A stretch of 34,711 nucleotides of DNA, taken from contig CACZFF010000056.1 of assembly GCA_902780385.1 (NCBI GenBank), positions 1 through 34,711 on the forward strand, read 5' to 3'. The stretch comes from an uncultured Lachnospiraceae bacterium (GTDB lineage: Bacteria; Bacillota; Clostridia; Lachnospirales; Lachnospiraceae). The position numbers were made by a program, and so were the translations under genes. This document shows, piece by piece, positions 6,944-34,284 of this stretch; the first letter of the stretch is position 1, and every line of letters begins with the position of its first letter. The notes under the pieces were generated by a model that did no database searches, was not told where the DNA came from, and saw only the letters and a program-made list of their open reading frames with translations.

Positions 6944-6982
6944 CTACTGCTTTCTATGTTTGGGAGACAGGGGACCGCTGCT

Positions 6983-7105
6983 GTTACTATTCACAGCCTC
7001 TGTATTCGAGGTGTTTTTGCACGACTTTTTCGTGCAAAAACCCGAGTGAAACGGCGTTTGCCCATGCTCGAAGAGCATATGTCCGAAGGGACTGTGAATA
7101 GTAAC
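6983..7105. mobile_element. MITE-like element, copy 1, with 8-bp target duplication
   Basis: The 123-bp element has perfect 14-bp terminal inverted repeats (GTTACTATTCACAG at 6983-6996 and its complement at 7092-7105). It is flanked by the direct repeat CCGCTGCT (6975-6982 and 7106-7113). Inside are a small CCTC/GAGG hairpin, a perfect 12-bp hairpin (7013-7024 with 7030-7041), a conserved CCCGAGTGAAACGGCG and an ATGCTC/GAGCAT hairpin. It encodes no protein, so any transposase must act in trans. The right target repeat ends at the first base of the complement of the M24 stop codon. Confidence 0.85.
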
Positions 7106-7112
7106 CCGCTGC

Positions 7113-9020
7113 TCAGATCGCTGCGGTCTGCTCACGGAGCCACCGGCGTTCCTCTTCGTTGAGAAGAGGTGCGATCTCGGCGTAGACACGGGCGTGATAA
7201 CGGTTCAGCACGCCGCGGGTCTGCGGCGTCAGGAAAGCCGGATCGATCAGCGCAGGATCGAGCGGAACGAAGGTCAGAGGACTGAAGCACAGAAATCTTC
7301 CGTCGCCGTTCTTCGCCGCCTCGACCACTTCCAGGATGGTCTCGATGCGGATCCCGTACTCTCCCTCAATATATACACCGGGTTCATCAGAGACGATCAT
7401 ACCCGGCTCCAGGACTGCTTCCGCCATTCCTTCCGAGAAACGCCAGCGGATGTTCTGAGGGCCTTCATGGACGCCCAGCAGGTAGCCGATCCCGTGACCT
7501 GTTCCGCACTTGTAATCGACAAAAGTGCTCCACAGGGGCTGTCTTGCCAGGATATCCACATTTCTTCCGGTACAGCCGTATAAAAAAACTGCATCCAGAA
7601 GCTGGAGATTGCCGACTGCGGTCAGGGTGTAATGACGGCGCATGTCTTCTGTCACAGGGCCGAGTGCCATGGTGCGGGTGACATCTGTCGTCCCGCGCAG
7701 GTACTGTCCGCCGCAGTCCACAAGCAGCATACCCTCGGGGCGCAGCTTTGCACAGTCATCCTTTTTGGCGCTGTAGTGCATCATGGCAGCGTTGGGGCCA
7801 TATGCGGAGATTGTCCCGAAGGACAGATCGATGAAGTCGCGGATCTCTGTGCGGAGAGAATCCATTTTCTCTGCAGCAGTGTACTCTGTAAGGGAATCCA
7901 CAGTGCCGTTCTCCACGTGCTTGTGGAGCCAGTAGAGGAAGCGGCAGACCGCAGCGGAATCGTCCCGGTAGGCAGCACGGATATTTTTGAGCTCCGTCTC
8001 GTTTTTTGCCGCCTTGAAATCCTCGACAGGACTGCGTTTTTCAAGGTCATAATGTGTCCGGCTCTTTATGCCTGCGGCTTCCCTTCCCTTGGTAAAGGCA
8101 TTCCACAGACGGATGCTGAGGCTGCCCGGATCAAAGAAGACCCGGCAGTCCTCCTGGTCATCATCTGCCGCAGCCTTCCCTGCGTCAGCTGTGCCGCCCC
8201 TGGCTGCAGCCCTCCGATAAATCTCCGGATCTTCCAGAAAAGCGCTCACGCTCTCATAGGGCTGAAGCTCAAGGCCGATGGAATCCGCATAGGCGCGGAT
8301 CTTTTCAGTCACTTCCCGGTCCTGGATGAACAGGACCTGCCGGTCCATGGTCACCAGACCGAAGCTAAGGGCAACCGGTGTGCACTCCACATCGCCGCCG
8401 CGCAGGTTGAACAGCCACATCAGGTTGTCCAGCTTGCTCTCCACATAGACCTGCGCACCTGCCTGCAGCATTTTTTTACGAAGCCTTGCCAGCTTCGATC
8501 CCGTGCTCTCCCCGCTGTATTCCTCTCCCAGCACAAAAGCAGGGTGAGCGGGAAGTGCGGGCCGGTCAGTCCAGATCCCCTCTGCGGGATCATATTGTGA
8601 TACAAACCGCACCTTTTTAAAGGCCAGCTTTTTTCTCAGATTCCGGACCTGACGGACATTCAGACATCCGCCGTCAAAACCAAGTGTGCCGTTTTGAGGC
8701 ATGCGGTCCGCCAGCCACTCGGAAACCGTGGGCACGCCCTCCTCCATCTCCCGATAGAGATCGATGCCGGTCCCTTCCAGCTCTTTCCCGGCCTGGATGA
8801 AATAACGCCCGTCCGTCCACAGGCCGGCTTCTTCCATGCCCACAACCAGCGTTCCATTGGAGCCCGAGAAACCGCTGAAATAATGCCTGGTCTGAAAATA
8901 CGGGGCGACATATTCCGAATTATGATAATCCGCCGTCGGAATCAGAAAATAATCGATTCCCAGGCTCTCCATCTTCCGGCGAAGCTTTCCGAGTCTGTCA
9001 ATAATGTTTCTATTTACCAT
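7113..9020 (-). CDS. M24 family aminopeptidase P-like metallopeptidase
   Basis: This probable Xaa-Pro aminopeptidase removes an N-terminal residue before proline. At 635 residues it matches the long three-domain aminopeptidase P type: two creatinase-like N-terminal domains (about 1-330) and a C-terminal pita-bread catalytic domain. Metal-site blocks are visible: VDCGGQYLRGTTDVTRT, GHGIGYLLGVHEGP, and SDEPGVYIEGEYGIRIET. A poorly conserved acidic insert, GGTADAGKAAADDDQ, lies before the catalytic half. There is no signal peptide, so it is cytosolic. The ATG at 9020 has AGAGG upstream. It follows thrC by 36 nt and is likely co-transcribed with it. A MITE-like element was inserted exactly at its 3' end without changing the reading frame. 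Confidence 0.94.
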   Translation of the reverse strand: MVNRNIIDRLGKLRRKMESLGIDYFLIPTADYHNSEYVAPYFQTRHYFSGFSGSNGTLVVGMEEAGLWTDGRYFIQAGKELEGTGIDLYREMEEGVPTVSEWLADRMPQNGTLGFDGGCLNVRQVRNLRKKLAFKKVRFVSQYDPAEGIWTDRPALPAHPAFVLGEEYSGESTGSKLARLRKKMLQAGAQVYVESKLDNLMWLFNLRGGDVECTPVALSFGLVTMDRQVLFIQDREVTEKIRAYADSIGLELQPYESVSAFLEDPEIYRRAAARGGTADAGKAAADDDQEDCRVFFDPGSLSIRLWNAFTKGREAAGIKSRTHYDLEKRSPVEDFKAAKNETELKNIRAAYRDDSAAVCRFLYWLHKHVENGTVDSLTEYTAAEKMDSLRTEIRDFIDLSFGTISAYGPNAAMMHYSAKKDDCAKLRPEGMLLVDCGGQYLRGTTDVTRTMALGPVTEDMRRHYTLTAVGNLQLLDAVFLYGCTGRNVDILARQPLWSTFVDYKCGTGHGIGYLLGVHEGPQNIRWRFSEGMAEAVLEPGMIVSDEPGVYIEGEYGIRIETILEVVEAAKNGDGRFLCFSPLTFVPLDPALIDPAFLTPQTRGVLNRYHARVYAEIAPLLNEEERRWLREQTAAI

Positions 9021-10655: not shown

Positions 10656-10692
10656 AGTAAAAAATGAGAAGGTATCAAGGCGAGGTATCAAG

Positions 10693-10824
10693 GCTACTGT
10701 ACAGACCCACCTGAAACGCGAGGTGTTTTTCGCGCGCTTTTCGCGAAAAACCCGAGTTAAACGGCGAAAATCGCGCGCACAGCGCATTGCTTGTACACGC
10801 CCTCGATAGGGCGTGTACAGTAAC
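10693..10824. mobile_element. MITE-like element, copy 2, with 8-bp target duplication
   Basis: The 132-bp element is bounded by G(C/T)TACTGTACA inverted repeats (11 bp, one mismatch) and flanked by direct copies of GTATCAAG (10685-10692 and 10825-10832). It shares with copy 1 the core AGGTGTTTTT...AAAAACCCGAGT(G/T)AAACGGCG, and the stem between is different but still paired (10725-10734 with 10742-10751). At the right end there is a perfect 11-bp hairpin (GTACACGCCCT with loop CGAT). No protein is encoded. Confidence 0.85.
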
Positions 10825-10956
10825 GTATCAAGGGATCAGGAAGGGATCAGTAAATACAAATACAGGAAACTTTTTTCAAACATTTACACAACTATTGGGT
10901 TTATTAATTTTTTATATTTGTCATATTTGACTATTCCATTCTTGCCTAAAAAGTCC

Positions 10957-21705: not shown

Positions 21706-21950
21706 TATATATATGATGTTGAGGTCAAAAGGTGGTTAAGGGAATACCGTCTCGTCAAGTTGCACAAACGCCTTGGGCACGCTCTCGCTCTACCCTCGCT
21801 GGCAGCGGTACTAAGGCCGCTAAAAAACAGCGGCCAAGTACCGGTGCAACTTGACGAGACTCAGAGCCATTAGATACCTTTTGACCTTTACATCATATAT
21901 ATGTATGATGTTAAAATCAAAAGGTAATAAAGGGACACCGTCCCGTAAAC
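21706..21950. repeat. Composite inverted-repeat element with an extra solo arm
   Basis: Outer arms 21706-21733 and 21876-21902 are inverted copies of an ATATATGATGT..AGGTCAAAAGGT type sequence. Inner arms 21749-21765 and 21844-21860 are perfect 17-bp complements starting GTCTCGTCAAG. In the centre is a hairpin with CGGTACT/AGTACCG (21806-21812 with 21837-21843) and GGCCGCT/AGCGGCC (21815-21821 with 21829-21835). Next to it, about 21903-21950 is a direct, diverged copy of the left arm, containing the palindrome GGGAC-ACC-GTCCC. No open reading frame of note is inside. Confidence 0.8.
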
Positions 21951-22198: not shown

Positions 22199-25100
22199 TT
22201 ATTTGATGATAAAGGTTCCGATGTAGGTGTTGGCGGCAGGCATGGGCACGGTGCAGAAGACACCGTTGCGCTGACGCCTGGTGACGATCCGTACATAGTA
22301 ACGGGTATTCTTTTTGAGCCTGGAGCTCCTGTGCTTTGTGATCACGGCGCTGGTCGCGGTCGCTTTAATGGAAGTGGACTGGTTCCAGTACCAGGTTCCA
22401 TTGGGATTCGTTGTGAGGAAAACGTTGTATCCGTTGCAGCCGTAGATGATATTCCAGCTGATGTTCATCTTCAGGTTGGCTCCTGAGCTCGCGTTTTTGG
22501 TAGTGAGTCTGGTCGGCGACGGTGTGATGTATTCCACATTGGACCAGGGGCCGAATTTGCGCTGGCCGCCTGACATGTAGAATGCCCTGACCATCATCTG
22601 GCTCACGTGCTGGGGATGGACTGTGCAGTCCCTGTAGAGGACATTGGATTTGACAATGGTCCTGCTGGCATGGGATCCGTCTGTCCATGACAGCAGTGTC
22701 TCATAGCCATCTGCACCTTCAGTCTTATTCCAGCCGATCCGGCAGCTTGTGTACCTGGAATTGTTCCACTTGACAAAGTGGCAGTTGCCGGGTTTCTTCA
22801 GAACCTTGTTGACAGTGATCTTGACCGTCTTTGACGCAGTCTTGTAGTTGGCGGTTTCCGCAGCCTTGACCGTGATCGTGACGGTTCCTGCCGACTTGCC
22901 GGTCACGGTACCTGCCGTGTCGACTGTCGCGACCCTGGTATTGGAGGATGTGAAGGTAAACCTGGGTTTTTCCTTGGCACCGGAAGCTGTCACTTTTGTG
23001 GTCTTGCCGGTGTTAATACTGGCAGCCCCTGCTTTGACCGTGAAGTTCTGGGCAGCTTTTTCGATGGTAAAGTCCTTGCTGAGGGTGCCGGTGTAACGGC
23101 CTGTGCCCGTAACGGTAACAGTGGCAGTGCCGGCATTTGTATTGCTGCTGTAGGTGACTGTGAAATCAGTGCCTTCCGTCAGGCCGTCGATCGTGGCGGC
23201 AGGGGTCTTCTGCTTTCCGTCGTAGACGAAGGGGCCGCCTGCGACGTTGACGGTATAAGCGCCGTTCTCCAGGTTTATTATCTGGGCAGGTTCCCTGACA
23301 ACATCGATACTGACCTCAGATGTGAGTGTTGTGCCGTCCAGCGAGACGGAGAGAACACCCTGACCGAGAAGTTTTCCGTCCAGGACAAATGTTGCGACTC
23401 CGTTTTCGTCTGTCGTGGCGGTCTGCTCTCTGGCGGAGACAATACTGGGTGAGTAGGATGTAATGGTGACCGTGCGGCCGCCGCCCGCCTCTGCGGGAAG
23501 GACCTTGACAGTCAGCTCTCCGCTTTCATGGTGCTTGATCTCTTCCGCACCCGAAGCGGTCAGTGACCTGGGCATCAGCACTACTTCATGATCTCCGCTG
23601 TAGGCTTTTGCAATGGATTTTCCATTGTAGTTCTTTACGCCCTTGACAGCGACCTTCACCGTCCCGGAGATTTCCTCGGCGGGAGTAAATGCGAAGGAGG
23701 AAGCGTACTGCGCTGTCTTCTCATAGTTGTCTTCAGCGTTGAGAGGTGTAATCGTTCCTTTCACGGCTTTTCCGCCGATGGTGACTGTGACGTTGCTGCT
23801 GTTTACGGTGTTGATCTGCATGTACTGGCTGAAGTCGATCCGCACCTGATCCGGATAGGCGGACACTGTGCTGACCGTCGGGGCGACCTTGGAGACCATG
23901 GCCGTATTCACCTCGGTCTGGATGGGAGGCACGGGCAGGTAGTTCTTTCCGTTTTCACCCACAGAGGTCGCCGCTGTGTCATGATAACTGTCAGCATCCT
24001 TATATCCGTCCTTTGTGAACTTGACGACCCAGCTGCCTTCGGGGACGTCCCAGGCAAAGGTGCCGTAGAGATCCGTGGTCTGCGGGTTTACCTGGTCGTA
24101 GTTCTCCGCATCCCAGAGGATTTCGGATTTCTCTTCGTCCTGCATGCCGAATTCATCCACGGCATAGGTGTACTGATAGATCGTCGCCGTCACACCTTCG
24201 ACGCGGTTGGACGGCACGGCCTCGTAAACGAAGCCGGACGGGTCGGCCTTGGGGACGACCTCCTGCTCTTTTTTCTTCTCCGGATCCTCCTTCGGTTCCT
24301 CATGGTCGCATTTGCAGTTTTTGCCGCAAGGGCATTGTGCCTGCAGGAACTTCTCAGTCTCCACCCGGATCCTGCGGTCGAGATCCTGAAAACTGCGATC
24401 CAGGCTTTTGCGGACATTGATGGAGGAGACGAAGGAGATCCATGTGTTGTCGGCAAAGTTCACATACTTGGCCGTATATTGTTCTCTGAGTTTCTTCATC
24501 TGGGGCCCTGACAGGAAAGGCGATCCATATAAGTAAAGTAAGCGCGCGCTTTTTTCGAGCGCCTGTCTCCTGATAAACCGATAGGCCTGTGTCTGGTTTG
24601 CGCCTTTGCCATACTGGCTTGCATACATTTTTGCCAGTCCGCTGCATCTTGCCATCAGGCCGTCAGCCGCATAGGCCCCGCCCGCAAGAATGAGGGAAGC
24701 CTTGATGTATTCGCCCCTCTCCATTTTAAAGTCTTCCAGCGGTTTCTTCATATAGTCGTCGCTAAGGCATTTGCAGTTCTTTTTCTTAACGACTCTCTCC
24801 ATCCTGTCCAGGTGCTTCTTCAGGGTCTTTGCGTTTTTCTTAAGGCCTTCCCAGTCTCCGATGAGTCTCTTATATACCTCATCATATTCCTTCTGACCCG
24901 ATACATAGTCCAGGCCTTGTCCTATCAGCTCCGCGCTGACGTCATAAAAGGCCGCCAGAGCATCGAGATATACAACTATCTCCCACCAATTTTCAGCGGC
25001 TTTACTGAGCCTGTTGTAGGCTTTGATCCAGTTATCAAGCGTCACTCCCTTGGCGGTGCCGCGAAATACTGCGGACTCTGCCCGGGACGGCAGGAAGGCG

Positions 25101-28100
25101 TCCGTCCCGCCGAAAGCCGTACCGGTGGCTATGGCGTCAGGCGAAAGCTTCATTGTCTCCTTTGCATACAGCCTCTCGTCGGGGTATGCTGTGCGTACCG
25201 TATACGTGTCTCCTGTCAGGTTATAGGTCTGATAGCTGATGGAGCCGTTTTCATCCTCGAACTCCATATAATTGTCTGCTGCCCAGTCTTCGAGGCGGAA
25301 CTCTTCGAAGTCAAGCATCTCCAGCTTATAGTCAGCGATCTTTATCCCGTCCACGGTGAGGTCAAAGGAGATTGTCTCGTCACCGAACACCTCATTGGCG
25401 CCGGCTGTGGTCTGTCCAAGTCTCGTCGACATATTCTGGTCGAGATTTACGGCATTTGCGAGCATATCCACCATATCCTCGGCTTCCATGCTGTCATCAT
25501 AGTCTTCTCCGCTCCAGTTGTCGCAGCTGACAGTCACTTTGCAGGGGACATCGCTGAATGTCCTGTAATCATGCGTGCCTGTCCAGACCCTGCCGATCTC
25601 GTCATAGGTGCAGGGCACATAGGTCCTTTCTCCCGAGGAATCGGTTGTGACCACGTTGACATTGCTCAGCACGTCCGCATCGCCGCCCGTAAATTCCACA
25701 AGGAAGGTGAATGTCGGATAAGAAGGCCAGTAATTATAAGTGGGCACGGCGGACGAAGGATGCAGAAAATCAAACACGGTGTTGAACTCTTTAGGTTTCA
25801 GACTATCATCGGGGTGCGCCGTGTTGATCATGGTGACCTTTGCTACTTCGACAAAGTTAATGTTATAGAGAAGCTCCGCGACATCCGTCTCTATGTCGAC
25901 GTCATATTCCGTACTCTTCACTGCCGCATAAATCTCATGGAAGGAGAATTTCATGGGCCGCACCAGTTCGAATTCCAGGCTCCAGGAGCCGTTCTTTTTT
26001 GAGGTCGTCGTCCCCACAGCCGTTCCGTTGTCATAGACAGTGACCTGGCAGCCGGCGATCGCCCTGCCTGTAGCCGTGACCTGTCTGAAACCGGTCTCGT
26101 CCGGTACAGAAATGGCAGCTGCCGAAACCTCTGCCACGGCAGTTCCGATCGGCTGCGTCACTTCCTGCGCGGACTCCGCCCCGTTTTTATTTGTGAAGGA
26201 CAGATAGGCGTGCAGCTTCTTTGTTCCGGCGGAAACGGGCAGTACATAGAAACGCAGGGTTCCTTTCGCTGTATTCACAGGTACGGAGACGCTGCTTCCG
26301 CCATCCGGGTTTTCCGTGACTGTGCAGGCAGCCGGCCTGCCATTGACCGTAAGGCTTCCCTCTATGAATGTCATTCCAGCGGGAATATCCAGCAGGACGG
26401 TCTCCCCGCTGGTAGTGTACTGATCCGCGATCTCGTACATTGCCCGCATGGTCACATACTGTCCGGTAACAGCCCGGCTGCTGCCGGCCCACACGCGGGT
26501 GTTGTTTTCCACTGTGTAGTAGAGTTTGCTCTCATCGAAATCAGGGACGTTGATCTCTCCAAGAACCCTGATCACGCCTTCTTCGACGGTGACATTTTTC
26601 TTTACAAAATCTTTGTTTTCTTCGGACAGGCCGAATTCATCGAACCTTGCCAGATGATCGACACTGGTCAGCAGGGAGGTCTTCTCCATCAGGACAACGG
26701 TATAGGCTCCGGCCGGAAGCTGCCCGGTCGTGTAGGCGCCTTCCGCACTGCCGGTCTCCACGATGCGTCCTGTGCTGTCAAACACCATAACCATCGCTTT
26801 TTCAGCTTCCTCATCGCTCAGGGCCATACCGGTAAGACGGATGCTGCCGTTCTCGACCAGTGTCCAGGAGGCGCTGCCGCAGCGGTACTCATCCAGTGTG
26901 ACCCTGACCTGTCCGTCGGCAAGTTTTCCGGTATTGTCGGTTATGGTGATCCGGATCACGTCTCCGGCAGCCGGAGCTTCCGCATTCCTTCTGTCCGGAA
27001 GGATCAGATAGGGGTACTGCACCCGGAGGTCTTTGACCTCCTTGTCCTGCGTCTCGTTGTAGGCGGAAAAAGCAAGGCCGTTGGCATTCTGCAGAACCGT
27101 GACGACAGGTTCCTCCCCGTCCGCGGCGGCACTCATCCGGGCAAGGGGCAGAGTGATCATATCGGCGGGCAGCTTTTCAAGGACAGCGGCGATCACGGCG
27201 GTCTCGCTCTCGCTTGTCCCGGAGACCGCATAGATCCCGTCATAATATCCTTCCGCCGAGACAGTCAGGACTGCTCTGGTCCTGTCTGCATCAAAGGAGA
27301 AGGCTCCCGTTTCTCCTGATTCGGTCTCAGACGTCTTTTCAAAAACTTCATTATAGATCTGCCTGAGCTGTACAGACGCTCCCTGTATAGGATTTCCGTC
27401 TGAATCTTTTACAGTGCCTGTGACAGCGCGTTTGCCAAAGGCTGTGAGCGCGATCTCGACAGTGCCGTCCTTATCAGACGCTGTATAAGCGACATCCTCC
27501 GGCCACTCATAAACAGTGCCCAGCTCCTCACCAAGGAAAACGCGGCAGAGGATCTGTGTACCCTCCTCGACATTCCTCAGCTTGCTGCCGCTTCCTAAAA
27601 GCTCGTCCGTATCATCCCGGTACCAATAGACCTCATAGCCGCCGCTGATGATCTTCCCGTCAGGATCCTTTACGTTTGCCTGCACGCTGTGGCCCAGATT
27701 TGTCGCGTACTCGTAGGGGATGTCATGTTCCTCAGCATATTCCTCTGCATAGCTTCCCGGGAAAACATAAAGCACAAGCTTGTCCGTTTTCTGGAAGGAA
27801 TTGTCAATCGATTCGACGCTGTCGGGGACCGCGACCATTGTGAGGTTGGCGCAGTTATGGAAAGCATAGGCTCCGATCGTCGTGACGCCATCCGGAATAT
27901 AGAGGGTTGTCAATGCGTTACAGTGATTGAAGGCATAGCTGCCGATCTGTGTGAGAGAATCGGGCAGATTCACATCTGTCAGGGACTGAATATAGTGAAA
28001 AGCATAATCCGGTATCTTGTCCGTCCAGCCGAATTCATAGTCAGCGCCCGAGCCGGAAGGCCCGGCTGTCTCAATGGCTGTGTTTCTGAACACTTCGCTG

Positions 28101-31100
28101 CCCATACTTGTGACAGTACCGGGCATGACAACTTTTTTCAGATTCGTGCAATCGCGGAATACTGAATTGCCGAGCGTCGTGAGTGATCCGGGAAGTGTGA
28201 CCGATTTGAGATTCGTTCTGTTCCGGAAAACTTCGTCCGCTATCCCTCCGATCGTAAAGCCTGACAGCTTTTCAGGAAGAACGATCTCCTCAGAATCATC
28301 CACCCATTTGGTAATGGTGTAGGTATCCTTCGACGCGTCCAGTACGGCCGTATAGTTAAAAGCGTCTTCTGAAATCTCATTTCCCTTATAGATCAGCTGA
28401 TCCCAACAGGGAACGCGGCTGAAAAGATACTTGGAAGGATCCTGTTTGATCTCCAGAATATGGAATTTGCAGTCTTTGTTCAAAAACTGCACAGCTTTAT
28501 TGCCTGTGCCTGTCATGATCGTTTTATGGGTACCGCCGGCCTTAAAGGCTTTTTCCCCGCTGACCATCTGGAAAAAGCTTCCGCCGATTTCAAGAGTGCC
28601 CGCTGTCAAGGTCTCATCCACTCTGTTGCTGTTCTTATCGTTATAATTGGCATCTCCGGCTGTATAGAAACTCCCTCCGATCTTAACGCTGTCCTCTTCC
28701 TTGTGCATGGCAAGAACACCGTTGCTTTGTCCGTAGGTCCCGTCCTCATTCTTCTGCTGGATCCGGTAATCTCCCGTCACTGTGAGTGCGCCGCCGTCAA
28801 TGACCACCGCGCCCTCGGGCTGCAGGATATTGCCGTCAACGGTCAGTGATCCCATGGTATCGGGTCTTAAGCCGGTGTCTCCTTCCGCGAGGCTTGCTCC
28901 GCCTATATAGAGCTTTCCGACTATGGTCTGCACATTGCCCTCGACCGTCAGCTCATGACCGTAAAAATCCATCCGGCCGTTTTCGGTCCGGATCATGATC
29001 CCGTCTTTATCCACAGCATTGACGGTCACATCGCTGCCCAGCTTTCCGACATTGAACCAGCCCTGCCAGTCGATGGAAGCCTCTCCTTCCGTCTCCAGCG
29101 TGGCAATATAGTTTTCGCGGTTGGCAAAGGAGACCTTGTGCTCACCGCTCCCCTTGGCCAGGAACCTGTGTGTGCCGGCCGCCCGGACGGGGCTTTCATT
29201 GCTGCGGATCTGGTAAAAGCCCTTACCGATCTCTAAGGTACCAGCCGTAAAGGTCTCATCCACCCTGGTTCCGTTCAGGTCGTTATAGTTCACATCTCCT
29301 GCGTGGTAAAAATCTCCCTCTACCTTTACGTAGTCGTCTTCATTGTGCATGGCCAGGACGCCGTTGCTGTTTGTACCGTAGCTTCCGTCAGAATTCTTGT
29401 CCTGGATACGGTAATCTCCTGTCACCGTGAGCGCGCCGCCGTCAATGACCACTGCGCCCTCAGGCTGCAGGAGATTTCCTTCGACAGTCAGTGATCCCAT
29501 GGCATCGGGTCTTGAGCCGCCTCCTCCCGCCAGGCTGGCTCCGCCTATATAGAGCTTTCCGACGATGGTCGCCACATTGCCATTTACAGTAAGCTTGTGG
29601 CCGTAGAAATCCATCCGTCCGTTTTCGCTCCGGATGCTGATTCCGTCTTCATCCACAGCATGGAGGGTCACATCGCTGCCCAGCTTTCCGACATTGAACC
29701 AGCCCTGCCAGTCGATGGAAGCCCCTCCTTCCGTCTCCAGCGTGGCAATATAGTTGTCGCGGTTGGCAAAGGAGACGGTATGTCCGCTGCTCCCCTTGGC
29801 CAGGAACCTGTGTGTGCCGGCCGCCCGGACGGGGGATTCATTGTCGCGGATCTGGTAAAAGCCCTTACCGATCTCGAAGGTGCCAGCCGTAAAGGTCTCA
29901 TCCACTCTGGTTCCGTTCAGGTCGTTATAGTTCACATCTCCTGCGTGGTAAAAGTCTCCCTCTACCTTTACGTAGTCATCTTCATTGTGCATGGCCAGGA
30001 CGCCGTTACTGTTTGTGCCATAGGTCCCGTCATCATTCTTGTCCTGGATACGGTAATCTCCTGTCACCGTGAGCGCGCCGCCGTCAATGACCACTACGCC
30101 ATCCGGCTGCAGAATATTCCCGTCGACAGTCAGTGATCCCATGGCATCAGGTCTTGAGCCGCTGGCTCCTCCTGCCAGGCTGGCTCCGCCTATATAGAGA
30201 TTTCCGATGATGGTCGCCACATTGCCATCGACAGTGAGCTTGTGGCCGTAGAAATCCATCCGGCCGTTTTCGCTCCGGATCATGATCCCGTCTTCATCCA
30301 CGGCATGGAGAGTCACATCGCTGCCCAGCTTTCCGACATTGAACCAGCCCTGCCAGTCGATGGCAGCATCTCCATCGGTCTCCAGCGCTGCCATATAGTT
30401 GTCGCTGTTGGCAAAGGAGACAATGTGTTCGCCGCTGCCCTTAACCAGGAACCTGTGTGTGCCGGCCGCCCTGACGGGGCTTTCATTGCTGCGGATCTGG
30501 TAAAAGCCCCTCCCGATCTCGAAGGTGCCGGCTGTAAAGGTCTCATCCACCCTGGTACCGTTCAGGTCGTTATAGTTCGCATCTCCGGCGTGGTAAAAGT
30601 CTCCCTCTACCTTTACGTAGTCGTCTTCATCGTGCATGGCAAGGACGCCGTTACTGTTTTCTCCGTAGGTTATGTTGATATCACCGGTTTCAGGATCCAT
30701 ATCGGTCGACCTGTCCTGAAGGCGGTAATCCCCGCGCACAATAAGAGAACCCCCGTTAACCAGGAGCACGCCCGCTTCCTGAACCAGACTGCCGTTGATG
30801 GTCAAAGAGTGACCGTTCAGGTCAACAAATCCATTCGAAATATAAGCGTCGCCGTCAATGACACGGTCCTCTGTCAGGGTCGTGGCTGAGAGATCTGTCT
30901 CGCCTTCTATGGCTCCCATCACGGGATCTTCCTGGACAGTCCCGGCTTCCTCTGCTGCCGGAGGTGCTTCGTAGTCTTCAGGAACATCTGTCCCGTCATC
31001 CAGCTGGTCCGAAGCCTCCTCCCCGGCATCATCTGTCTGACCGGATCCGCCCGGTTCAGAGCTTTCCTCTTCCCAGCCGGATTCATCTTCGGCTTCTCCG

Positions 31101-31510
31101 GCATTGACATCTTCCGCCGCTTCATCGGTTTCGTCCGAACCGCTTTCTTCTGCAGGCTCTTCTGCCGATTCGCCGGTTTCCTCTGCCGCCCGGTCAGATT
31201 CATCCGACCCGGTTTCCTCTGCCGGGTCTTCGCTTACATCCGAACCGCTGCCGTCATCCGACAAAGCTTCGTCCTCATTCATGGACTCTGCGGATCCATC
31301 CTCTCCGGATTCTTCCGGGGCAACTGTGGATCCTTCCTCTCCGGACTCCTCTTCGTTTCGGGCAGCATCACCCATCATGGCTTCCTCTGCCTCAATCGTC
31401 GTTGTCCCAGGAGCTTGTTCTACCTGCTCAGCAAAAACAGATCCGCCCAGCGAAGCTGTCAGTAAAGATGCCGCAAGCAGTATTGCCAGAAATTGTTTTT
31501 TTCTCTTCAT
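22199..31510 (-). CDS. Giant multidomain secreted surface protein (3103 aa)
   Basis: A signal peptide (basic start, hydrophobic core, cleavage likely after SVFA at residue 27) shows export. In order: an Asp/Glu/Ser-rich stalk (about 40-195); four repeats of about 215 residues (from about 237, 461, 675 and 890) with beta-helix-like strands such as TVDGNILQP and DGGALTVTGDYRIQ; BspA-type leucine-rich repeats (about 1065-1255); a carboxypeptidase-regulatory-like fold (about 1357-1425); Ig-like segments; a helical region with NCKC motifs (about 2155-2405); a second regulatory-like domain (about 2410-2500); an MBG-like domain (about 2745-2820); a Big_2 domain (about 2821-2904); and two Fn3-like domains. 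No LPXTG motif or C-terminal anchor is seen, so it is either released or held non-covalently. An adhesin or matrix role is inference. AGAGG lies about 12 nt before the ATG. Confidence 0.88.
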   Translation of the reverse strand: MKRKKQFLAILLAASLLTASLGGSVFAEQVEQAPGTTTIEAEEAMMGDAARNEEESGEEGSTVAPEESGEDGSAESMNEDEALSDDGSGSDVSEDPAEETGSDESDRAAEETGESAEEPAEESGSDETDEAAEDVNAGEAEDESGWEEESSEPGGSGQTDDAGEEASDQLDDGTDVPEDYEAPPAAEEAGTVQEDPVMGAIEGETDLSATTLTEDRVIDGDAYISNGFVDLNGHSLTINGSLVQEAGVLLVNGGSLIVRGDYRLQDRSTDMDPETGDINITYGENSNGVLAMHDEDDYVKVEGDFYHAGDANYNDLNGTRVDETFTAGTFEIGRGFYQIRSNESPVRAAGTHRFLVKGSGEHIVSFANSDNYMAALETDGDAAIDWQGWFNVGKLGSDVTLHAVDEDGIMIRSENGRMDFYGHKLTVDGNVATIIGNLYIGGASLAGGASGSRPDAMGSLTVDGNILQPDGVVVIDGGALTVTGDYRIQDKNDDGTYGTNSNGVLAMHNEDDYVKVEGDFYHAGDVNYNDLNGTRVDETFTAGTFEIGKGFYQIRDNESPVRAAGTHRFLAKGSSGHTVSFANRDNYIATLETEGGASIDWQGWFNVGKLGSDVTLHAVDEDGISIRSENGRMDFYGHKLTVNGNVATIVGKLYIGGASLAGGGGSRPDAMGSLTVEGNLLQPEGAVVIDGGALTVTGDYRIQDKNSDGSYGTNSNGVLAMHNEDDYVKVEGDFYHAGDVNYNDLNGTRVDETFTAGTLEIGKGFYQIRSNESPVRAAGTHRFLAKGSGEHKVSFANRENYIATLETEGEASIDWQGWFNVGKLGSDVTVNAVDKDGIMIRTENGRMDFYGHELTVEGNVQTIVGKLYIGGASLAEGDTGLRPDTMGSLTVDGNILQPEGAVVIDGGALTVTGDYRIQQKNEDGTYGQSNGVLAMHKEEDSVKIGGSFYTAGDANYNDKNSNRVDETLTAGTLEIGGSFFQMVSGEKAFKAGGTHKTIMTGTGNKAVQFLNKDCKFHILEIKQDPSKYLFSRVPCWDQLIYKGNEISEDAFNYTAVLDASKDTYTITKWVDDSEEIVLPEKLSGFTIGGIADEVFRNRTNLKSVTLPGSLTTLGNSVFRDCTNLKKVVMPGTVTSMGSEVFRNTAIETAGPSGSGADYEFGWTDKIPDYAFHYIQSLTDVNLPDSLTQIGSYAFNHCNALTTLYIPDGVTTIGAYAFHNCANLTMVAVPDSVESIDNSFQKTDKLVLYVFPGSYAEEYAEEHDIPYEYATNLGHSVQANVKDPDGKIISGGYEVYWYRDDTDELLGSGSKLRNVEEGTQILCRVFLGEELGTVYEWPEDVAYTASDKDGTVEIALTAFGKRAVTGTVKDSDGNPIQGASVQLRQIYNEVFEKTSETESGETGAFSFDADRTRAVLTVSAEGYYDGIYAVSGTSESETAVIAAVLEKLPADMITLPLARMSAAADGEEPVVTVLQNANGLAFSAYNETQDKEVKDLRVQYPYLILPDRRNAEAPAAGDVIRITITDNTGKLADGQVRVTLDEYRCGSASWTLVENGSIRLTGMALSDEEAEKAMVMVFDSTGRIVETGSAEGAYTTGQLPAGAYTVVLMEKTSLLTSVDHLARFDEFGLSEENKDFVKKNVTVEEGVIRVLGEINVPDFDESKLYYTVENNTRVWAGSSRAVTGQYVTMRAMYEIADQYTTSGETVLLDIPAGMTFIEGSLTVNGRPAACTVTENPDGGSSVSVPVNTAKGTLRFYVLPVSAGTKKLHAYLSFTNKNGAESAQEVTQPIGTAVAEVSAAAISVPDETGFRQVTATGRAIAGCQVTVYDNGTAVGTTTSKKNGSWSLEFELVRPMKFSFHEIYAAVKSTEYDVDIETDVAELLYNINFVEVAKVTMINTAHPDDSLKPKEFNTVFDFLHPSSAVPTYNYWPSYPTFTFLVEFTGGDADVLSNVNVVTTDSSGERTYVPCTYDEIGRVWTGTHDYRTFSDVPCKVTVSCDNWSGEDYDDSMEAEDMVDMLANAVNLDQNMSTRLGQTTAGANEVFGDETISFDLTVDGIKIADYKLEMLDFEEFRLEDWAADNYMEFEDENGSISYQTYNLTGDTYTVRTAYPDERLYAKETMKLSPDAIATGTAFGGTDAFLPSRAESAVFRGTAKGVTLDNWIKAYNRLSKAAENWWEIVVYLDALAAFYDVSAELIGQGLDYVSGQKEYDEVYKRLIGDWEGLKKNAKTLKKHLDRMERVVKKKNCKCLSDDYMKKPLEDFKMERGEYIKASLILAGGAYAADGLMARCSGLAKMYASQYGKGANQTQAYRFIRRQALEKSARLLYLYGSPFLSGPQMKKLREQYTAKYVNFADNTWISFVSSINVRKSLDRSFQDLDRRIRVETEKFLQAQCPCGKNCKCDHEEPKEDPEKKKEQEVVPKADPSGFVYEAVPSNRVEGVTATIYQYTYAVDEFGMQDEEKSEILWDAENYDQVNPQTTDLYGTFAWDVPEGSWVVKFTKDGYKDADSYHDTAATSVGENGKNYLPVPPIQTEVNTAMVSKVAPTVSTVSAYPDQVRIDFSQYMQINTVNSSNVTVTIGGKAVKGTITPLNAEDNYEKTAQYASSFAFTPAEEISGTVKVAVKGVKNYNGKSIAKAYSGDHEVVLMPRSLTASGAEEIKHHESGELTVKVLPAEAGGGRTVTITSYSPSIVSAREQTATTDENGVATFVLDGKLLGQGVLSVSLDGTTLTSEVSIDVVREPAQIINLENGAYTVNVAGGPFVYDGKQKTPAATIDGLTEGTDFTVTYSSNTNAGTATVTVTGTGRYTGTLSKDFTIEKAAQNFTVKAGAASINTGKTTKVTASGAKEKPRFTFTSSNTRVATVDTAGTVTGKSAGTVTITVKAAETANYKTASKTVKITVNKVLKKPGNCHFVKWNNSRYTSCRIGWNKTEGADGYETLLSWTDGSHASRTIVKSNVLYRDCTVHPQHVSQMMVRAFYMSGGQRKFGPWSNVEYITPSPTRLTTKNASSGANLKMNISWNIIYGCNGYNVFLTTNPNGTWYWNQSTSIKATATSAVITKHRSSRLKKNTRYYVRIVTRRQRNGVFCTVPMPAANTYIGTFIIK
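28843..30802 (-). repeat. Near-identical long repeats inside the giant gene
   Basis: Equivalent points of the repeats lie at 30802, 30130, 29488 and 28843, giving spacings of 672, 642 and 645 bp. Matching segments, for example near 30241-30360 and 29596-29716, differ at only a few bases. The first unit has about ten extra codons (in the RSTDMDPETGDINITY area), and the fourth is diverged in its second half. Confidence 0.9.
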
Positions 31511-34247: not shown

Positions 34248-34284
34248 AGAAGGGAGACAGAGAACCGTCCCCTGTCTCCCTTCT
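34248..34284. repeat. GGGGACGG-family hairpin near tpiA
   Basis: A perfect 13-bp stem (34248-34260 with 34272-34284) encloses an 11-nt loop, AGAACCGTCCC. The core AACCGTCCCCTGTCTCC is the same as at 126-142. It lies 35 nt past the tpiA stop and may also act in 3'-end formation. Confidence 0.8.

Follow-up and report, generated by a model that had tools for sequence, protein, structure and literature searches.

The window analysed here is a stretch of 34,711 nucleotides from an uncultured Lachnospiraceae bacterium that contains two related short insertions, copy 1 and its sister copy 2 (Table 1). Based on open reading frames and Pfam matches, copy 2 is located between two divergently oriented genes, for threonine synthase (- strand) and for a sodium:solute symporter (+ strand), and copy 1 lies just beyond the stop codon of an M24 peptidase gene. 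Both are bounded by exact 8-bp target-site duplications. The original prediction that copy 2 has such a duplication of its own is confirmed by the identical bases on its two sides, and the same eight bases occur once more in the left flank (10672-10679).

The two insertions were also predicted to have a common core. A 21-base core is indeed present twice in the window and in none of 100 shuffles (up to three mismatches allowed). Their first hairpin (H1) has different stem sequences that nevertheless pair in each case, as had been claimed: GTTTTTGCACGA/TCGTGCAAAAAC in copy 1 and GTTTTTCGCG/CGCGAAAAAC in copy 2. H1 of copy 2 consists, in order, of CGAGGTG, a T5-CGCG arm, a T-rich loop, a CGCG-A5 arm and CCCGAG. 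The left terminal inverted repeat of copy 2 resembles the ends of an IS66-type transposon (L062, see below). The second hairpin (H2) is incomplete in both insertions because both are internally deleted relative to full copies of ~154 bp; copy 2 is 22 bp shorter than the 154-bp copies.

Table 1. Parts of the two element copies in the window
Feature	Position	Strand	Basis
Left target-site duplication CCGCTGCT, copy 1	6975..6982	.	exact match to 7106-7113
Copy 1, end type B (GTTACTATTCA), 123 bp, internally deleted	6983..7105	+	ends match IS66-type transposon L061
Hairpin H1, copy 1 (GTTTTTGCACGA / TCGTGCAAAAAC)	7013..7041	+	sequence and DNA fold
Right target-site duplication CCGCTGCT, copy 1	7106..7113	.	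exact match to left one
Left target-site duplication GTATCAAG, copy 2	10685..10692	.	exact match to 10825-10832
Copy 2, end type A, 132 bp, internally deleted	10693..10824	+	covariance model, 110.5 bits
Left terminal inverted repeat GCTACTGTACA, copy 2	10693..10703	+	one difference from reversed right end
Hairpin H1 and conserved base, copy 2	10719..10756	+	pairing counts over copies
H2 5' arm and inner hairpin, copy 2; 3' arm deleted	10764..10789	+	comparison with full copies
Terminal hairpin H3 (TGTACACGCCC/GGGCGTGTACA), copy 2	10792..10819	+	DNA fold of copy 2 and of full copy
Right terminal inverted repeat GTTACTGTACA, copy 2	10814..10824	-	end comparison and end-sequence search
Right target-site duplication GTATCAAG, copy 2	10825..10832	.	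exact match to left one

Family spread and IS66-type partners

A covariance model built from 18 full copies gives at least 101 matches in the own genome (E<=0.001, fragments included, with scores for 150 of 804 candidates); this assembly comprises 96 contigs and is 92% complete. At the genus level, the model matches 11 of 61 genomes (own genome counted), and no match was found in 24 genomes of other families of the order. Since only part of the candidates were scored (at most ~49 per genome in the genus- and order-level scans), element copy numbers are lower bounds. The exact core pattern is present in 68 stretches of a species-genome collection. Of these, 63 also match the model and come from Lachnospiraceae or Eubacteriales MAGs or from Sarcina sp. 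DSM 11001, a cultured carrier of many copies that NCBI places in Clostridiaceae; the other five (L154, L159, L163, L176 and L184) have no model match and were discarded as chance occurrences. Viral contigs contain no exact core match, and viral carriage was therefore rejected.

Element lengths peak at 152-155 bp, and the window copies are shortened forms. Both ends are present in 119 of 165 loci (fuzzy match), 68 of these 119 being 150-155 bp long, and 11 rows, mostly 169-173 bp long, contain an extra small hairpin. Our survey of the own genome covers 74 of 84 rows, after duplicates and weak, partial or contig-cut rows were removed by hand. Simple ORF calls place 68 of these 74 copies between genes, and the 8-bp target duplications are exact in 31 and have at most one mismatch in 44 of the 74. 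Badly damaged copies from other genomes are under-represented because those copies were recruited by the exact core pattern or as the best model matches.

The element ends are GTTAC..GTAAC, and 80 rows could be sorted into end type A (47), type B (12), type C (6), unclear (11) and without recognisable core (4). Searching with the end sequences led to two long elements (L061 and L062), each encoding an IS66-domain transposase, and no third such transposase was found in the own genome. The ends of L062 are of type A and are flanked by an exact CAAAAATT duplication; those of L061 are of type B, and this element runs up to the end of its contig. The IS66 family carries accessory tnpA/tnpB genes, and L061 and L062 each have one small upstream ORF without a Pfam family. 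The IS66 DDE transposase domain (PF03050) scores 52.0 and 41.6 bits in L061 and L062 (cut-off 23.1). Both are divergent members of the family, as NCBIfam NF033517 gives them 149.7 and 110.5 bits and has a cut-off of 180. When a search required inverted ends and a duplication with no more than one mismatch, 8 of 16 transposon loci had GTTAC/GTAAC ends and an exact 8-bp duplication. Six copies combine type C ends (GTTACAAGTCACA) with the same core (L046, L198, L201, L205, L208 and L214), and no transposon with matching ends was found for them in the own genome.

Two loci contain neighbouring copies. On contig C47 of the own genome (L085, 1493-1801), a type A and a type B copy lie side by side with three copies of CACTTTTG, which indicates that the duplication of one copy served as the insertion site of the other. 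The order in L075 is truncated copy, CCAGTCTA, full copy and a further CCAGTCTA. The element is best read as an IS66-dependent MITE because its two commonest end types match the two detected IS66-type transposons; judged on these sequence matches, its status as a MITE with IS66 partners is almost certain.

By contrast with the ends, the core appears to be absent from the transposons. Across 15 transposon loci, and apart from a separate element copy next to one of them, model matches are weak and confined to the ends of L062 (14.9 and 10.5 bits). These loci do not show the element's interior as a deletion product of an autonomous partner, and an extinct partner that carried the core is conceivable. 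The partner transposons have palindromes of their own in their non-coding ends (L062 333-443 and 2725-2836; L061 395-623), which in L062 are arranged in mirrored order on both sides and are of a CAGCAG type and a TTTTTGC..GCAAAAA type. Derivation of the core from the partner transposons was considered and rejected, as none of these palindromes gives a model match.

Across the 61 genomes, the element is present in 11, an L062-like transposase in 10 and both in four, and any IS66 domain is present in 8 of 11 carriers versus 18 of 50 non-carriers. No IS66 domain was found in carriers G009, G017 and G061, all of which have many copies. The link between element and transposase across genomes is thus loose.

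We then compared the element with known systems. It resembles IS66-family insertion sequences (PF03050, NF033517) and IS-derived MITEs in its 8-bp duplications, its matching inverted repeats, its resident autonomous partners and its short, non-coding form. It differs from them in having an interior unlike a deletion remnant of the partner transposons and a hairpin core that is combined with three or more types of ends. In REP/RAYT and other single-stranded-DNA hairpin elements, the hairpins may act as folded DNA. In this respect the element could be alike; unlike REP/RAYT, it has 8-bp duplications and DDE-type inverted-repeat ends. Bacterial stem-loop repeats with MITE features include NEMIS/Correia, RUP, ERIC and CIR, as outlined in PMC2229807, and the SLS families with Bcr1, as outlined in PMC2267715. 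As far as these outlines go, the element shares with them a length of ~100-200 bp, many copies, a mostly intergenic location, stable stem-loops and target duplications. Most such repeats are described as A+T-rich with a 5'TA3' end motif (PMC2229807), whereas the element has GTTAC..GTAAC ends and ~44-61% GC (matches in the full-length range), a distinction drawn from the descriptions. CIR, with two arms and a linker, is the nearest in layout, again by description. No IS66-dependent MITE with hairpins and no Lachnospiraceae MITE was found in the literature searched, i.e. titles, abstract openings and PMC3189936.

Hairpins and covariation

Full copies have three hairpins. H1 has a T5-GC stem, a T-rich loop and A5; H2 combines a fixed GCG/CGC base with a variable stem, an inner hairpin and a bulge of TTGGAAT; H3 lies at the right end. 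When folded as DNA, a full copy has a z-score of -7.3, copy 2 one of -5.3 and copy 1 one of -9.0, the last including a contribution from end-to-end pairing; folded as RNA, a full copy has a z-score of -6.0. Two tandem G.A pairs could form at the base of H1 (CGAGG..CCCGAG), and in 4 of 83 copies the H1 base pair next to CGAG/CGAG is C-G in place of G-C.

Pairing was counted in a non-redundant set of 102 copies, out of 116 unique full-length copies from 181 alignment rows. One copy has no core, and in the other 101 a helix was found for H1 in 96, for H2 in 93 and for H3 in 88. Mismatches affect 10 of 842 pairs in H1, 27 of 982 in H2 and 25 of 1027 in H3 (62 of 2851 in total), in a stem search that treated G-U and A-C alike; these counts are flattered because the best helix per copy was taken.

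Covariation was tested on these many copies, as the original prediction had proposed, with an in-house tree-aware version of the R-scape null. In a structure-blind MAFFT alignment (96 of the 102 sequences), seven pairs reach E<=0.05, five being true stem pairs of H2 and H3 and two being neighbours of these. An anchored test covers the 83 of 102 copies in which the anchors were found. A single H2 pair is significant here (E=0.025) and another comes close (0.06), with comparable scores for two pairs within one arm (E 0.07 and 0.18). H1 alone fails the 0.05 level in this test (best pair E=0.23). The claim that pairing is kept as the sequence changes is supported over many copies and several genomes, with significant pairs in H2 and H3, although H1, the stem that it named, fails when taken alone.

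Reconstruction of changes along the tree gives 45 double changes from one Watson-Crick pair to another versus 38 one-sided changes to G-U or A-C. The one-sided changes from Watson-Crick pairs comprise 20 to G-U, 18 to A-C and 74 to other mismatches, the last partly through register shifts. Double changes may be inflated by recombination of whole hairpins because stem types are mixed between copies.

What keeps the stems paired

Covarying stems are commonly regarded as strong evidence of functional RNA. A selected RNA tolerates G-U far more than A-C, and no such preference is expected from a DNA fold or a DNA mutation process; G-U versus A-C counts thus offer a simple control for RNA-motif discovery. 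The element stems contain 24 G-U and 24 A-C pairs (H1 3 v 1, H2 7 v 18, H3 14 v 5). Reading of the rows traces 8 of the T-G pairs in H3 to a single pair that type B copies inherited, and 9 of the 18 A-C pairs in H2 to wrong-register helices; both corrections together leave ~17 v 15. Anchored pairs of H1 and H2 give 14 v 26 (75 rows left of 83 after identical ones were merged). By contrast, RNase P RNA of the same genus (26 of 30 loci retrieved, 26 genomes) has 331 G-U versus 9 A-C, or 111 v 5 at pairs with at least two Watson-Crick types, in a comparison where control pairs chosen by RNAalifold favour G-U, as do element copies found by an RNA model. A MAFFT/RNAalifold count on the element gives 59 G-U, 45 A-C and 71 other mismatches. 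With no G-U excess over A-C, we see no strand-specific RNA selection. The lack of G-U tolerance suggests that the stems keep Watson-Crick pairing as DNA and not as a transcript, and the covariation is probably DNA-level.

These counts bear directly on the idea that the hairpin is selected as RNA, which was part of the original prediction and is not upheld. In such an RNA cargo, a promoter within the element or next to it would drive transcription of one strand, and selection would act on the fold of the product, e.g. a small RNA, a leader or an RNA-stability element. Covarying stems with conserved unpaired motifs and the strong RNA fold are what it would produce, and own-genome copies are oriented in gene sense more often than not (28 v 11, p=0.009). 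However, the orientation bias is not repeated in other genomes (10 v 12) and was dropped for this reason, Rfam has no match on the element, either at the gathering threshold on the window or in permissive searches of nine loci (where four permissive hits lie in flanks), and the parity of G-U and A-C is unlike RNase P. An RNA cargo thus appears quite improbable. An intrinsic terminator was also considered and rejected: whichever strand is read, the H1 stem begins with T and ends with A, opposite to the order in a terminator. A different explanation is that the palindromes are functionless. Template switching between inverted-repeat arms, as outlined in PMC8794818 and PMC8604942, homogenises the arms and can keep pairing without selection, and it can also invert spacers. 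Replication alone could then yield double changes, in agreement with the equal rarity of G-U and A-C, with the 45 double versus 38 one-sided changes and with the spacer of the extra hairpin, which is GAA in seven rows and inverted as TTC in three (same-sense own-genome copies). Spacer inversions in H3 are largely antisense matches of a palindrome and were not used. The inverse is present for none of the 30 H1 loop types listed, which argues against a purely mutational origin. Mutation alone is also inadequate because some sites are slow and because amplified groups are free of shortened forms. CGAG, CCCGAG, AACG and the GCG base of H2 have 4.2, 3.2, 4.8 and 0.7 changes per site, respectively, compared with 12-13 at the left end (a value raised by copies whose ends are damaged), 7.0 in GTAAC of the right end, 6.3 in TTGGAAT and ~9 in the variable H2 arms. 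In the 119 of 165 loci from which the shortened-copy and H3 tallies were drawn, shortened copies account for 0 of 33 in near-identical groups versus 20 of 86 singletons (p=0.0009), or 0 of 33 versus 18 of 80 if a recognisable core is required (p=0.0014). We therefore regard a purely mutational explanation as unlikely.

The palindromes might instead be double-stranded DNA sites for dimeric proteins, i.e. a host factor, the transposase or the small protein that partners it. Such sites would yield symmetric change without G-U pairs, in line with the symmetric change without G-U excess seen here, and H3 is a palindrome of the transposon end. However, different palindromes change as whole blocks, whereas asymmetric motifs outside them remain constant, and the transposons searched lack the core. 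Dimeric-protein sites are a very unlikely cause of the paired change. In H3, a variable base agrees with its hairpin partner in 48 of 49 copies and with the left (opposite) transposon end in 14 of 35; because it follows the hairpin partner, the hairpin and not an end-to-end match is kept. The conserved core motifs that are unpaired or non-canonical (CGAG/CCCGAG and AACG, and less strictly TTGGAAT) could themselves be a protein site in double-stranded DNA.

Taken as a whole, the account towards which we lean is that of an IS66-dependent MITE with a DNA-level hairpin core that aids mobilisation in cis. The MITE would be moved in trans by resident IS66-type transposases, probably that of L062 for type A and that of L061 for type B copies. 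Its palindromes would fold as hairpins or cruciforms on single-stranded DNA, e.g. on the lagging strand or during transposition, and template switching between the arms would then correct mismatches. The folded core would be retained by aiding the element's own mobilisation in cis, e.g. by drawing the ends together or binding the transposase, for which the palindromic H3 is a candidate doubled site. The lack of shortened copies in near-identical groups and the agreement of the H3 base with its hairpin partner speak for such a role. The core was not found in the 15 transposon loci and is therefore not required for IS66 movement in general. A helping role in cis is the more tentative part of this account, possible but not favoured; if the core acts in this way, the element would be a DDE-type MITE that needs internal folded DNA. 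A functional structured cargo, at which the original prediction hinted, is plausible. Its other suggestion, selection as single-stranded DNA, may hold, and template switching could also keep the pairing without selection.

A further reading treats the core as the real unit of inheritance, a module that is under selection in the form of folded single-stranded DNA and that pairs with different IS66 ends over time. It would fit the occurrence of the same core with at least three end types and the faster change of the left end than of the core motifs, and we consider it doubtful. If true, it would describe a DNA-transposon parasite that needs a multi-hairpin single-stranded or cruciform DNA besides inverted repeats. 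Covariation without G-U tolerance in a repeat of several genomes points to DNA-level folding or template switching, and the many copies provide a natural test case for telling the two apart.

Other repeats in the window

Three other repeat structures lie in the window. A perfect 24-bp inverted repeat (AGGGGACGGTTCTTTGTCTCC...) is located at 87-136, with a further partial copy near the other window end (34253-34273). The AGGGGACGGTTCTTTGTCTCC motif looks like a second repeat family because it also flanks element copy L005. At 21707-21902, two 59-nt arms that start with ATATATATGATGTTGAGGTC are 80% complementary and lie 78 nt apart, possibly a MITE-like structure; similar sequence flanks the element copy in L014. 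Finally, a putative secreted protein of 3103 aa is encoded on the - strand at 22199-31510, and its gene contains DNA repeats that are spaced 642-645 bp apart and are up to 86-89% identical.
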